34,892 bases of DNA from contig WJKH01000003.1 in NCBI GenBank assembly GCA_014729235.1, forward strand, positions 1 through 34,892. The letters are read 5' to 3'. This DNA comes from Candidatus Dojkabacteria bacterium (GTDB taxonomy: Bacteria; Patescibacteriota; Dojkabacteria; SC72; WJKH01). The notes under the pieces are model-generated. The model was not told where the DNA came from. It made no database searches and worked only from the letters and a program-made list of their open reading frames with translations. The position numbers were made by a program, and so were the translations under genes. This document shows positions 9,967 to 24,949 of the stretch, piece by piece; position 1 is the stretch's first letter, and every line of letters begins with the position of its first letter.

Positions 9967-10169
9967 CTAACAATATAATTAATAAATTTATATAGAAAAC
10001 AAATTCGAATACCCAAGCAGATTTACAGATTAAACTAAAGAAAATAGTTCCATAAAGGGCCCGGGAAAAGTTTTTAAAATTGAAAAAGAGTTAATCAATA
10101 GCAGTTATTGAGAAAGTATAGACCAGGAATAATTTAAAGTCAAACTGAAATACACCTAAAATAGCAAAG

Positions 10170-10205
10170 AAAAAAAAAGGGATCGGCACTGCCCCAACCG
10201 ACCCC
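10170..10205 (-). terminator. Intrinsic terminator of the small RNA
   Basis: GGGGTCGG pairs with CCGATCCC (8 bp, one G-U) around an 11-base loop, followed directly by nine T residues on the minus strand. This is the strongest terminator in the window. Confidence 0.9.
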
Positions 10206-10343
10206 GGTGAATTTCAGTTAACTTTTAACAAAAAGTCATCGAAGTACGTTGGAAATCTAGTGGACTTATCCATATGCCCAGTTGTGTAGAACACCCCAGA
10301 CATAGGGAAAAATCCACTAAACACTAAGTATTTAAATGAGCTA
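10170..10343 (-). ncRNA. Putative small structured RNA of about 174 nt
   Basis: It is bounded by a perfect consensus promoter upstream and a strong intrinsic terminator at its 3' end. Inside, positions 10256-10321 fold into one long hairpin: GTTTAGTGGA pairs with TCCACTAGAT, then an internal loop (TTTTT opposite ATAAG), then CCCTATGTCTGG pairs with CTGGGCATATGG (one mismatch, three G-U), topped by GTGT/ACAC. A second hairpin, ACTTTT TGTT AAAAGT, follows near 10220-10235. It does not match the conserved cores I know for SRP RNA, RNase P RNA or tmRNA. The size and the long interrupted hairpin are loosely like 6S RNA, but I cannot claim that identity. The 82-codon ORF called here starts with GTG upstream of this promoter and is judged spurious. 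Confidence 0.6.
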
Positions 10344-10349
10344 ATCATA

Positions 10350-10378
10350 ATTATATCCCCTAACCAAATAACTGTCAA
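10350..10378 (-). promoter_or_regulatory. Perfect consensus sigma-70 promoter
   Basis: TTGACA (10373-10378), exactly 17 bases, TATAAT (10350-10355), minus strand. It is the only full-consensus promoter seen in the window, and it drives the putative small RNA ending at 10170. Confidence 0.85.
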
Positions 10379-10576
10379 GCCCCTATTATATATCCACATA
10401 TGCACCTTCCAACAAGATTCCTGGACTTTGCTTGTTAACAAAGGTATTTGATCAGGCAACACTAATTCACTTCACGAGATTGTTACGAAAGATCGGTCGG
10501 CAATACTGGTGTTACGCGAGTTGTGGATAAGTGCTGCAAGGCTTATTCTCAAAGCTTTTTACCCCTCCTCTCCTAT

Positions 10577-10790
10577 GGGTTTGGCACTTCAAGGCTAAAA
10601 CCAGACCCCTTTTCACCATAGATAACGGAGTTTTTGTCCGTTTGTTATCTGCTCTCTCTCAGCATCACAAACCCTTACGGGTTTGTGTACGCTCGCTCGT
10701 TTGATAAGCAAACTGGGGTACTGTTTGTTATCTGCTCTCGCTCGGTATCACAAACCCTTACGGGTTTGTGTACGCTCGCTCGTTTGATAA
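10577..10790. repeat. Dispersed repeat family B, copy 2 with two tandem palindromic units
   Basis: Bases 10577-10676 match copy 1 at 4845-4946, including the hairpin GATAAC..GTTATC (10621-10649). From about 10641 two units of about 83 bases follow. Each reads GTTTGTTATCTGCTCTC, then a perfect palindrome CACAAACCCTTACGGGTTTGTG (10666-10687 and 10749-10770), then TACGCTCGCTCGTTTGATAA. The last block recurs at 17606-17626. The region lies just downstream of radA and has no U-tract. It looks REP-like; function unknown. Confidence 0.75.
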
Positions 10791-10923
10791 TAAATCTTGG
10801 GGTGGGATAACTGAAAATACTGAAAATACGATTCGCCTATAAACTACGTATACACTACGCAAAAATCATTAACACTGGAAATTTGCAGAATTGAAACCTA
10901 CCACACTACTCGATTTACCATCC

Positions 10924-17867: not shown

Positions 17868-18380
17868 TTAGCCTCACACAAGATAAATTCGTTCCTTTAA
17901 TCCGTATAAAACTTCATAAAAGTTAAAACTTTCTTGGGTGCAGCCGTATGCATGACCCGCAATCTGATAATTTGCAAAGCAAAAAATTCAGAAAGCATGA
18001 ATCAAAAAAGATTTCGGTCGATTAGTACTCCTTGGCTAAATATATTACTACACTCACACCTAGAGCCTATCAACGTAGTAGTCTACTACAGACCTCACAT
18101 TCGCTTAAAGCGAATAAGCATGTTTCATCTTGAGGCAGGCTTCGCACTTATATGCTTTCAGTGCTTATCCAATAGCAACGTAGCTACCCAGCTATGCTCC
18201 TGGCGGAACAACTGGTGCACTAGAGGTTACCTCACCCTGATCCTTTCGTACTAAGGGTCAATCCTCGCAAACATGCAACGCCTGTACCGGATAGAGACCG
18301 ACCTGGCTCACGCCGGTCTGAACCCAGCTCACGTGCCACTTTAATGGGCGAACAGTCCAACCCTTGGGTGCTTCTCCACA

Positions 18381-18414
<34 letters not shown>

Positions 18415-18824
18415 TCCGCGCCGTCAATATGGGCTATCGGGCGCGACTAGCCTGTTATCCCCGGGGTAGCTTATCTCCGTTAAACAATAGCGATACCATA
18501 ATCTACTATAGGGTCACTTAGACCTGCTTTCGCAACTGATCGGGGTGTCCCCCTCACAGTAAAGCTGACTTATGCCTATGCACTCTTCATCCGATTTCCA
18601 TCCGGATTGAGTCAACCTTTGTGCGCTTGCGTTACTCTTTCGCAAGCAACCGCCCCAGTCAAACTGCCTACCATACACTGTCATACACAAGGATTACTTG
18701 CATACTAAGACACAAAATGACAAAAGAGAGGTATTCCACTGACGACTCCCCCAACCCTAACGAGTCGAGTTCAAAGTCTCCCTCCTATTCTCTTCATCCG
18801 TAATCTTGTACCAATGTAAAGTTG

Positions 18825-18855
<31 letters not shown>

Positions 18856-18987
18856 GTACAGGTAGACCGCATCTTCACAGTCATTTCAATTTCGCCGAGC
18901 GCGCTGTCAAGACAGCGAGAGGATCGTTACACCTTTCAAGCAAGCCACTAATTAAGTGGCGAGGTATTACGCTACCTTAGGACCGTT

Positions 18988-19764
18988 CACTTTTGTTACT
19001 CATTATTCCGATTGACATCGTCATAATGGGACACTTCATTTCTGAGCATCTCTGTATGTCGCCATACAGGTCGGACTATATCATCCTCTTCCCAAAATAT
19101 CTTGGCAAGAGATCTGGCGTATAGTCTCTGAGGATTCTCTTATGAATCAAGTATTTCCCGAATATTATTCTTCGAATACTTACGTTTTCTTCCAACAACG
19201 ATTTGCTCTCGCATATCGTATATCTTCAGAATTCCAGTTCTCGTTAAATGCACTTCTTCCATCATCAACTCTACTATATTAGCAAAGACCATAAAAGTCT
19301 TTCCTTTCCTTGTTTTAAGAGGAAAGTTCATAAAGAAAGGGATTATGATTTCATACAAGTCTCTCAAGTTCGTTACTTCATAGTAATAAACACCATCGCC
19401 ACGATGGCGAATGGTTCCACATTGGAAGAAATTCCTAATAAAATCAAGAATTTTACGTTCCTTTTGTGAAATATTGAAACTTGCAGTAATTTTCACACCC
19501 AATCGATAATCTTTTCTGACTTTGAAGGAAATATTAAAAACTCCTCTCTCCATCAGCAAATCCGCAAATATAGTTCGCATCCGACGTATAGTCTGTACAA
19601 ACAGAACTATCTTTCATAAGAATCTTTCCTGCTGATTGTCCGCACTTTGACATTTTCACTTCCTGATAATATTCATTATCCAGTTAGTAGTCAAAGATAC
19701 TCGGATATTCCAGCATTTGGCCAAATTTTACAACTACAATTGATAGATTTTCTCTATCTGGTTC
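18988..19764 (-). other. Group I intron in 23S rRNA at position L1917
   Basis: The 5' exon ends GGCTGTAACTAT (U1917 of helix 69) and the 3' exon resumes AACGGTCCTAAGG (A1918). The intron begins GAACCAG and ends AAAAGTG, the terminal G being omega-G. P1 is clear: exon AACUAU pairs with guide GUAGUU (in CAATTGTAGTTG), with a U-G pair at the splice site. P7 halves are CAGAGACTATA and GATATAGTCC. A P6-type stem (GATTCTTATGAA / TTCATAAGAGAATC) encloses the endonuclease gene. Family knowledge: helix 69 hosts introns in other bacteria (such as Coxiella L1917) and in organelles; the neighbouring site is that of I-CeuI. Self-splicing looks possible. Confidence 0.88.
19140..19617 (-). pseudogene. LAGLIDADG homing endonuclease, frameshifted in its first motif
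   Basis: Intron-encoded, intended to cleave intronless 23S alleles. The track ORF (19140-19580) starts inside the coding region and lacks a proper motif. The true start is ATG 19617: MKDSSVCTDYTSDANYICGFADGE, which carries the LAGLIDADG helix (YICGFADGE), but the frame then reaches a stop. Dropping one base within GGAGAGAGGAG (19541-19550) restores the continuous protein FADGEGVFNISFKVRKDY, running on through FNISQKERKILDFIRNFF. So a single-base insertion splits the gene. It is about 158 residues when repaired, a single-motif (homodimer) type. The TAA stop lies in the P6 3' strand. Possible explanations are decay, a sequencing error, or recoding. Confidence 0.85.
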
Positions 19765-20575
19765 ATAGTTACAGCCGCCATTCACCAGGGCTTCGGTCAC
19801 CAGCTTCTCAGCCTCAGAGCATCCGAAGATGCATCCAAAGCACGATAACCAACTTCCTTAACCTTCTGGCATTGGGCAGGTGTCAGCACCTATACATCCA
19901 CTTACGTGTTTGCAGGCACCTGTAGTTTTGGTAACTAGTCGTCCTCTCCAATTCTGTGCCACCATAATCGCCACAAATCCAAAGATATATGACGTATGGC
20001 CCCCCTTCTTCCAAAGGTACGGGGTTAATTTGCCGAATTCCTTAACAACGCATCACTCGTACGCCTTGGTGCTTTTACACCAGTCTACCGGTGTCGGTTT
20101 GCGGTACGGTTACCAATAAATTTTCATAAATTCCGAAGAAAATAATAATCTTAGAAGTTTTTCCTGGGCCATTGAGCTCTACAAATCGGATCCCCGAAGT
20201 TCACCTCTGCATCAAAGCTCGCGAGCAACTCCCGGATTTACCTGGGAGGCATAAGCTAACTTTTTACACCCCAATAGCCAAAAGGGGCTTGCATACTCAA
20301 CAACCTGACTCCATCAGAATTTATTAGTAGTACAGGAATATTAACCTGTTGTCCATCGTTTACGCCTTTCAGCCTCAACTTAGGACCGACTAACCCATGG
20401 ATGACTGACATAGCCATGGAAACCTTAGACATTCGGCGAGTGGGGTTTTTACCCACTTTGCGCTACTCATCCCAGCATTCTCACTTCTGTACGCTCCAGC
20501 AGCTCCTTGTCGGGCCACCTTCACAGCGATGCTCTGCAATAAAGCAGAGACGTACAGAACGCTCCCCTACCCCCA

Positions 20576-20646
20576 CCCCGCTAACCTATAGTTCCAAAGA
20601 AAAACCGCTTTTAAAACGGCACTTTGTAAACCATAAGTTAGCAGGG
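20576..20646 (-). repeat. Inverted-repeat element in 23S helix 45 (stable-RNA family, copy 1)
   Basis: It replaces the tip of helix 45 (E. coli about 1164-1185), between GAAGCTGCGACTTA and GGGGGTAGGGGAGCG. The left arm is CCCCGCTAACCTATAGTTCCAAAG; the right arm is its near reverse complement. The three clear arm differences would be mismatches in the plus strand but become G-U pairs in the transcribed minus strand. The central loop holds a small CCG/CGG hairpin and no ORF. Confidence 0.88.
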
Positions 20647-21272
20647 TAAGTCGCAGCTTCGGAAACCATCTTCAGCCCCGTTACATTTTAGGCACAACAT
20701 CTCTTGACTAGTAAGCTTTTACGCACTTTTTAAAGGATGGCTGCCTCTAAGCCAACCTCCTAGCTGTCTAAGAGATCTCACTACCTTTTCCACTAAGATG
20801 GTATTTAGGGTCCTTATCTGACGATCCGGGCTGTTTCCCTCTCGAGCATAGAAGCTTATCCCTCTAGCTCTAACTACTCCAATGTTCACAATGGTATTCG
20901 GAGTTTGACAGGATATGGTACCCTTTCGGGCCCAAAATCCAATCAGTGCTCTACCCCCATTGTTTAAACTGAAGCGCTAGCCCTAAAGCTATTTCGGGGA
21001 GAACCAGCTATCTCCAAGTTCGTTTGGCATATTACCGCTAACCACACCTCATCTCATAATTTTGCAGCATTAACGAGTTCGGGCTTCCATCCCGCTTTCG
21101 CGGGGCTTCACCCTGGACATGGTTAGATCACTTGGTTTCGGGTCTAGTACATACAACTAAAATCGCCCTGTTCAGACTCGCTTTCGCTTTGGCTCGCCCC
21201 ACATAGTGGGATTAACCTCGCTGTACATACTAACTCGCTGGGTCATTCTTCAATAGGCACGCCGTCACCCCG

Positions 21273-21599
21273 CTAACCTATAATTCGTTCACCTTTTCTA
21301 ATTTTTACCTTTTTATAGACTCTTGTATCAACAATGTGCGTATCCAATGAGCACCTAATTCTGTGCATCAGGCCTTGCCAAACTGCTCCATACTGTTTCA
21401 ATTTGGCTTCACGGTCGTACGCAAAAATCCTATTCACATATCCTTCAACATACACCACTTTCCAGTGATTAGATTTTGTATAACCTCGATTAAGCATTGA
21501 ATTGTGTTCGCTGAGTCTCCGCAAAAGATTTGCGGTTACTCCAACGTAAAACTTATTCTTGCGCGTCTTGGTAGATTTTAATACATACACATAATACAT
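21273..21599 (-). CDS. GIY-YIG nuclease-family protein encoded in the 23S insert
   Basis: A 108-residue single-domain GIY-YIG endonuclease of the small YhbQ/UPF0213-like type. The motifs are MYYVYVLKS (the GIY strand), FYVGVTANLLRRLSEHN (the YIG strand and catalytic Arg helix), and the conserved Glu helix YDREAKLKQYG. The C-terminus is basic (KKVKIRKGERIIG). Its stop codon TAG lies inside the element's own arm (GGTTAGCGGGG), so gene and repeat are physically fused. A perfect 10-bp hairpin (21601-21626) ends one base before the ATG. It probably mobilises the element, but that is inference. Inside rRNA it would need translation from the precursor or from an excised piece. Confidence 0.9.
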   Translation of the reverse strand: MYYVYVLKSTKTRKNKFYVGVTANLLRRLSEHNSMLNRGYTKSNHWKVVYVEGYVNRIFAYDREAKLKQYGAVWQGLMHRIRCSLDTHIVDTRVYKKVKIRKGERIIG

Positions 21600-21600
21600 A

Positions 21601-21626
21601 AATGATGAGTATACAGACTCATCATT
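21601..21626 (-). promoter_or_regulatory. Hairpin abutting the GIY-YIG start codon
   Basis: AATGATGAGT and ACTCATCATT, a perfect 10-bp stem with loop CTGTAT in the transcript, leave one base before the AUG at 21599. It may block or gate translation, or be a processing site. Confidence 0.6.
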
Positions 21627-21734
21627 AAAAAGTCCTTAAAAGATAATTAAAAACGATTTAACAAACTATAAGTTAGCGGGGCTTCGACTGTTTGTAAGCA
21701 TACGGTTTCAGTGCTATTTCACTCCGCTCTCCGC

Positions 21735-21780
<46 letters not shown>

Positions 21781-22361
21781 AAAAAGTATTTAGCCTTACC
21801 GGATGGCTCCGGCAAATTCCCACAAGGTTTCACGTGTCCCGTGGTACTGAGGATATTACCAGAAGATACATACTTTTCATCTACACAGCTATCATGTTCT
21901 ATGGCCTGCCTTTCCAGGCATGTTCGATTAAATATGTATTTTGTAACTTCTTTGCTAATCCGTAAATTAGCGTGGTAATCCTATAACACTTATATTGCAC
22001 GAGTTACGGCCTACGAGTTCACTTCCACAATCATCGCAACGCGAATCATGCTTCAGATCCCTCTTACACAATATAAGTTTGGGCTACTCCCGTTTCGTTC
22101 GCCACTACTAGGGGAATTACTGTTGTTTTCTTTTCCTGCAGGTAATAAGAGGTTTCAGTTCCCTGCGTCGCCCTCCAGCTACAAAGTAGCTTGGATAATA
22201 CTGCATGACCAGTATTTGGTTTCCCAATTCGGAAATTCCCGGATAATAACGCTTGGTGACAGCTCTCCGAGACTTATCGCAGCCTTCCGCGTCCTTCATC
22301 GGCTTTTTGCGCCAAGGCATCCACCATATGCTCTTAATTCTCTTTCTGATTCGATCTACAT

Positions 22362-24939: not shown

Positions 24940-24949
24940 TCAAGGAGCA
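24937..24949 (-). promoter_or_regulatory. boxA antitermination site in the rrn leader
   Basis: Minus strand TGCTCCTTGACAA matches E. coli rrn boxA TGCTCTTTAACAA at 11 of 13 bases. It lies between the promoters and 16S, where NusB/S10 would load. Confidence 0.7.

Follow-up and report, generated by a model that had tools for sequence, protein, structure and literature searches.

The minus strand of the window (the whole stretch of Candidatus Dojkabacteria DNA that was analysed, 34,892 nt in length) carries, between radA and rho, a gene for a small structured RNA with homologues across the class Dojkabacteria. On the evidence of sequence comparison, this is a real, class-wide and previously uncatalogued structured RNA and constitutes a new RNA family: the gene stands alone, its sigma70 promoter is close to consensus, an intrinsic terminator is usually present, the secondary structure of its product is conserved and it is independent of rho. 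In the literature searched for Dojkabacteria or Patescibacteria RNAs, no publication describing it was encountered. The preferred reading, to which a probability of roughly 0.45 is assigned, is that the RNA represents in Dojkabacteria a new family of small regulatory RNAs acting in trans, with the loop of the terminator hairpin as an antisense seed.

Promoter, terminator and modules of the RNA gene

The inferred RNA is approximately 174 nt long (10170-10343, minus strand); its 5' end was set 7 nt after the -10 hexamer and its 3' end at the U run. Both radA and rho are on the same strand. The promoter (10378-10350) is a perfect sigma70 TTGACA-17-TATAAT, with the -35 TTGACA at 10373-10378 and the -10 TATAAT at 10350-10355. 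A promoter with no more than one mismatch occurs once in the 34.9 kb, against a mean of 0.30 in shuffled sequences at equal tolerance. Hairpin T (GGGGUCGGU(UGGGGCAGU)GCCGAUCCC; 10179-10205) provides the terminator stem (9 bp with a 9-nt loop) and is followed by a run of nine U (10178-10170). The predicted folding energy of the RNA is -58.7 kcal/mol, compared to -39.2 +/- 3.5 kcal/mol in shuffles (z = -5.5). The gene is considered real and its promoter strong, and expression of the RNA is inferred from the conservation of both promoter and terminator. The first-pass annotation had proposed an unannotated stand-alone RNA of about 170 nt, resembling a housekeeping RNA, with a full-consensus promoter and a terminator consisting of an 8-bp stem and nine U. 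The promoter is exact, the length and the nine U agree, and conservation is sufficient for the term "housekeeping" within the class, but the stem has 9 bp rather than 8.

An 82-aa ORF (10214-10462) extends through the RNA promoter. It has no Pfam match and no counterpart in the other homologous loci, and the RNA itself shows compensatory changes; the candidate small-protein mRNA was rejected. Conservation of this frame as a protein, which had been named as an argument against an RNA gene, was not seen.

The RNA consists of three parts: a boxA-like 5' end, one to three copies of a hairpin termed module A, and a helix C joined to hairpin T. The boxA-like element (AGCUCAUUUAAAU; 10330-10342, minus strand) matches 8 of 11 consensus positions. 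Homologues match at a mean of 8.36 of 11 positions (shuffled sequences: 6.77, control stretch: 6.3), and several members, notably those of family f12, have no such element. The rrn leader in the window has a perfect boxA (TGCTCCTTGACAA at 24949). Protection from Rho would be the natural reading of a boxA-like leader.

In the window, module A is a hairpin at 10255-10322 (minus strand), and corresponds to the long hairpin with an internal loop in the original description; the internal-loop region includes a conserved C mismatch. The core of the module (10266-10310) has the form UCC-C-UAUGUCUGG...CUGGGCAUAUGGA, with the C mismatch and a tandem U.G/G.U. Covariation over 91 copies was 0.483, against 0.181 in shuffled alignments; the A3 alignment was fitted to the model and hence leans towards the structure. 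The C mismatch is present in 91/91 copies, the loop-proximal G-C pair is invariant and the tandem U.G/G.U nearly so. Where an RNA has more than one copy, the copies covary independently.

Helix C (10206-10240, minus strand) lies directly 5' of hairpin T and is likely stacked on it. All 11 of its pairs show double changes, and the covariation of the combined helix C and hairpin T structure is 0.380 (shuffled: 0.140, slid controls: at most 0.192). Hairpin T is near-invariant in the class, its stem being as conserved as its loop (UGGGGCAGU; 10188-10196), though conservation there is conditioned because the alignment was partly gathered by the exact T pattern. In independent covariance model searches, which are less conditioned, the loop varies outside an invariant GGGCAGU core. 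The U run is weak in several homologues, and at locus L021 a second copy of the T loop sits on the tip of helix C.

Other features of the window were recorded in passing. Between radA and the RNA promoter (10640-10801) are two 79-nt direct repeats, 91% alike, each containing a 22-nt palindrome (CACAAACCCTTACGGGTTTGTG). The 23S rRNA gene (18001-22347, minus strand) is 4,347 nt long against a 2,925-position model and contains approximately 1.4 kb of insertions. Because these carry homing endonuclease ORFs of the LAGLIDADG (19140-19580) and GIY-YIG (21273-21599) types, they are probably introns.

Distribution in Dojkabacteria, other Patescibacteria and phages

In a DNA search of 97 relatives, most of the class-level ones proved to have the 3' hairpin, with approximately 80-97% identity and at a single site in each genome. 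When approximately 85,000 species genomes were scanned with the hairpin sequence, 50 loci were recovered. Those with a named lineage all belong to Candidatus Dojkabacteria (WS6), apart from one that is classified under Microgenomates, and the remainder are from unclassified Patescibacteria or bacterial MAGs. Approximately 150-300 nt upstream of where the hairpin ends, 79 of 80 homologous loci have a promoter that matches the consensus at 10-12 of 12 positions. The position between radA and rho, for which a synteny check had been suggested, is borne out by the order radA - RNA - rho in approximately 45 of 50 loci, with clpC and an M23 peptidase gene as the typical flanking genes.

Two covariance models were built, R1 from helix C and hairpin T and R2 from module A (window match: 10310-10266). 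R1 has matches in 71 of 86 class genomes and R2 in nine of the 15 that are R1-negative, so the RNA is present in 80/86 genomes, essentially as a single copy. In G055 and G067, A-like hairpins were seen by eye after a perfect promoter upstream of rho. In the last four class genomes, the region is probably unassembled, as rho gives no match in three and lies at the edge of a contig in the other. In family f14, module A is present and the T hairpin is not. A module A hairpin with a promoter also precedes the ORF of a CsoR-like repressor at a site that is not near rho (L140, G056:C97, 1927-1965); the contig may be foreign, or the module may have a second use.

Outside the class, R1 found three tiny RNAs, each with a T-like hairpin approximately 10 nt after a TTGACA promoter; in both cases with assembled surroundings, the next gene is rho. 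With R2, five genomes from two other families gave A-type RNAs that stand alone next to lon. One genome outside the class, G098, has both an A-type and a T-type RNA in separate places. Because A-type and T-type RNAs occur separately in other Patescibacteria, comparison of these sequences indicates that the Dojkabacteria join in one RNA two modules that are kept apart elsewhere.

Copies of the RNA are also found in phages, with a full copy in at least one of them. A scan of IMG/VR identified two phage contigs. L180 has a promoter, a boxA-like element, module A (R2 E-value: 8e-6) and helix C with hairpin T (R1, 52.9 bits) in front of a replication gene, and L179 has helix C with hairpin T (R1, 66.6 bits) in front of RecE/RecT. 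L181, the third viral match, falls by chance inside a lysozyme-like coding sequence. Four further viral patterns matched nothing in IMG/VR, and one found only the L179 and L180 contigs again.

The T loop as a candidate antisense seed

The complements of the T loop (ACTGCCC, ACTGCC, CTGCCC and two others) were fixed before they were tested in the complete genome G012. Within the 5'UTRs of this genome (n = 649), ACTGCC was seen 20 times against 1.2-2.6 expected, and ACTGCCC nine times against 0.2 or 0.7 expected. Among 1,408 GC-rich 6-mers, ACTGCC is the most enriched at G012 starts and CTGCCC the second, and when the complements of all 236 six-base windows of the G012 RNA are ranked by enrichment, the two windows that lie within the T loop come top. 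Genes with such sites (named by NCBIfam) include those encoding DnaA (two sites), DnaN, FtsA, FtsZ, FtsE, NrdD and phosphoglycerate mutase. G018 retains the ftsA site, with diverged flanks. Shine-Dalgarno sequences are almost absent from G012, where GGAGG precedes 3 of 649 starts. No 6-mer is more enriched near its start codons than TATAAT, which suggests that leaders in this genome are very short.

The excess is weak in G018 (3 ACTGCC against 0.4-1.4 expected). In a sampled fifth of the window genome (187 5'UTRs), ACTGCC occurs once against 0.4-1.2 expected, where a rate like that of G012 would give approximately six. G048 shows no excess at starts though it keeps the T loop, and neither does G053, a control that lacks T. 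Housekeeping genes near the RNA in approximately 50 genomes have no conserved T-loop sites. Given these absences and the weak signal in G018, good support for the seed reading is confined to the G012 lineage.

Other partners for the T loop were considered and rejected. ACTGYC wobble sites show no enrichment as a class-wide signal, ACTGCCC is absent from 16S rRNA, and no conserved site for pairing with the rho leader was found. The loop is similar to the P-loop of 23S rRNA (UGGGGCGGU), but mimicry was dropped because divergent members do not conserve the first G of the loop.

Alternative readings and proposed model

The frequent neighbourhood of rho raises the question of a cis-acting leader or attenuator, in which transcription would halt at hairpin T and regulated readthrough would feed rho. 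The adjacency in approximately 45 of 50 class loci and in two genomes outside the class favours this, as does the weak U run of several homologues. It is nevertheless unlikely, since rho has a promoter of its own. In the window this promoter (TTGACT-17-TATACT; 10115-10143, minus strand) lies outside the RNA, and a second promoter right after the RNA hairpin, typically TTGAC[AT]-17-TATACT, is found in 43 of 48 loci, compared to 9% of shuffles. In the f12 genomes (G048 and G054), the RNA is complete with promoter, A, C and T and rho is elsewhere in the genome; other genes intervene between the RNA and rho at L078 and L080; and the A-type RNAs outside the class stand beside lon. In view of the f12 arrangement and the separate promoter, a role as rho leader was rejected as the sole function; the RNA most likely acts in trans, and this is well supported. 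Several of the rho transcripts at loci L031-L080 begin with a small hairpin of their own (for example, GGGTTAATTGCCC or AGACAAACATGTCT). A possibility that carries more weight than attenuation, but is still doubtful beside the antisense reading, is that of a protein-binding RNA with a logic similar to 6S or CsrB, in which A and T would bind and titrate or modulate a protein, which might belong to the transcription apparatus (RNAP, Nus factors or Rho), and the ACTGCC excess in G012 would be unrelated. Such a function is consistent with the one to three independently covarying copies of module A, the repeated T loop of L021, the boxA-like leader, the phage copies and the frequent position beside rho, which extends to the tiny T-only RNAs of other Patescibacteria. 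Pairing would also not require the degree of conservation seen in the sequence of the T stem, the C mismatch and the tandem wobble. Against it, no candidate protein was identified, and the rank of the T-loop complement as the top enriched window in G012 is left unexplained. The antisense reading has difficulties of its own: the ACTGCC enrichment is strong in G012 only, the T stem is conserved to the same degree as the loop, something that base pairing by itself would not require, f14 keeps module A with no T, and no Hfq-type partner was identified. T-loop antisense pairing is judged the best single mechanism, with protein binding by module A as its main rival or complement.

Known RNA families account for the gene poorly. 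With Rfam 15, at gathering and relaxed thresholds, the RNA gave only chance matches and none above the gathering threshold, in keeping with the inability of the first-pass annotation to place it. That annotation had named 6S RNA as the nearest guess, and a diverged 6S RNA invisible to the Rfam model would share with the Dojkabacteria RNA its size, strong promoter, near-universal presence in its own clade and probable abundant expression, and would fill the place of a 6S RNA that is not detectable in the class. This is very unlikely. The 6S model (RF00013) matches nothing in 39 genomes including that of the window, there is no closing stem around a large central bubble, and both fold and covariation give separate hairpins as the conserved parts. 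Full-length 6S RNAs of canonical appearance, mostly sub-threshold, are found in other Patescibacteria (L168-L173 and L174-L178), unlike the RNA described here, and none in Dojkabacteria. The first-pass annotation is therefore partly supported: its RNA gene stands, its 6S guess does not, and it missed the class-wide family, its boxA-like leader, the repetition of the hairpin module, the invariance of the terminator loop and the phage homologues. Least probable of all is another housekeeping RNA (SRP RNA, tmRNA or RNase P) or a small-protein mRNA. A single-copy gene with a strong promoter throughout the class would suit a housekeeping RNA, but there is no Rfam match and no conserved ORF. The tmRNA model (RF00023) and the RNase P models have no match in the window, and L021 has a separate tmRNA gene. 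The SRP RNA model (RF00169) has no match in 38 of 39 genomes, and in 24 sampled genomes neither an Ffh M domain nor an SRP GTPase over the cut-off was found (0/24 each, with positive controls), so that the order of the window genome appears to have no signal recognition particle altogether. The sole SRP RNA match is in G013, and may be foreign because that assembly has 7% contamination.

Several known systems offer partial parallels. Base-pairing sRNAs with a seed in a hairpin loop are known, such as the sRNAs with C- or G-rich loops in Gram-positive bacteria. The Dojkabacteria RNA shares with them a stand-alone gene, a strong promoter, an intrinsic terminator and a single-stranded loop complementary to sites near start codons (statistically, in one genome). 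It differs in that the candidate seed is invariant in the class and lies in the terminator loop, in its duplicated dsRNA-like modules and boxA-like leader, and in that no Hfq was identified. CsrB and RsmZ are protein-sequestering RNAs with a varying number of a repeated hairpin, a feature also seen here; in the Dojkabacteria RNA the invariant positions are in the helix rather than being GGA in loops. In rrn leaders and phage nut sites, boxA comes just after the start and hairpins follow. The order is the same in the Dojkabacteria RNA, and one phage copy precedes a replication gene, but the bacterial RNA stops at its own terminator, separate from rho.

The proposed mechanism under the antisense reading is as follows. 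The boxA-like 5' end would recruit NusB/S10 and shield the untranslated RNA from Rho. A protein would bind module A, whose helix is duplicated and has non-canonical pairs at fixed positions. The T loop (GGGCAGU), which is exposed and invariant, would pair with ACUGCC(C) beside start codons and alter translation. In the G012 lineage, where the predicted targets include dnaA, dnaN, ftsA, ftsZ, ftsE and nrdD, the RNA may tune the cell cycle, and phages with a copy would steer the cell-cycle machinery through it. A broader and more speculative model, which is improbable, is that of a modular RNA basic to Dojkabacteria, with split forms elsewhere in Patescibacteria. Protein-binding A and the antisense T loop would together coordinate replication, dNTP supply and division (DnaA, DnaN, FtsA, FtsZ, FtsE and NrdD) in organisms largely without Shine-Dalgarno sequences, and phages would have acquired the RNA to seize the same circuit.

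The Candidate Phyla Radiation comprises a large share of bacterial diversity; its members are mostly uncultured, and little is known of their RNA regulation. A class-wide RNA whose structure is strongly supported, that joins modules found separately elsewhere and that is carried by phages, offers a concrete entry into gene control in Patescibacteria. If the seed reading is true, the RNA would be a candidate cell-cycle regulator in bacteria with minimal genomes.
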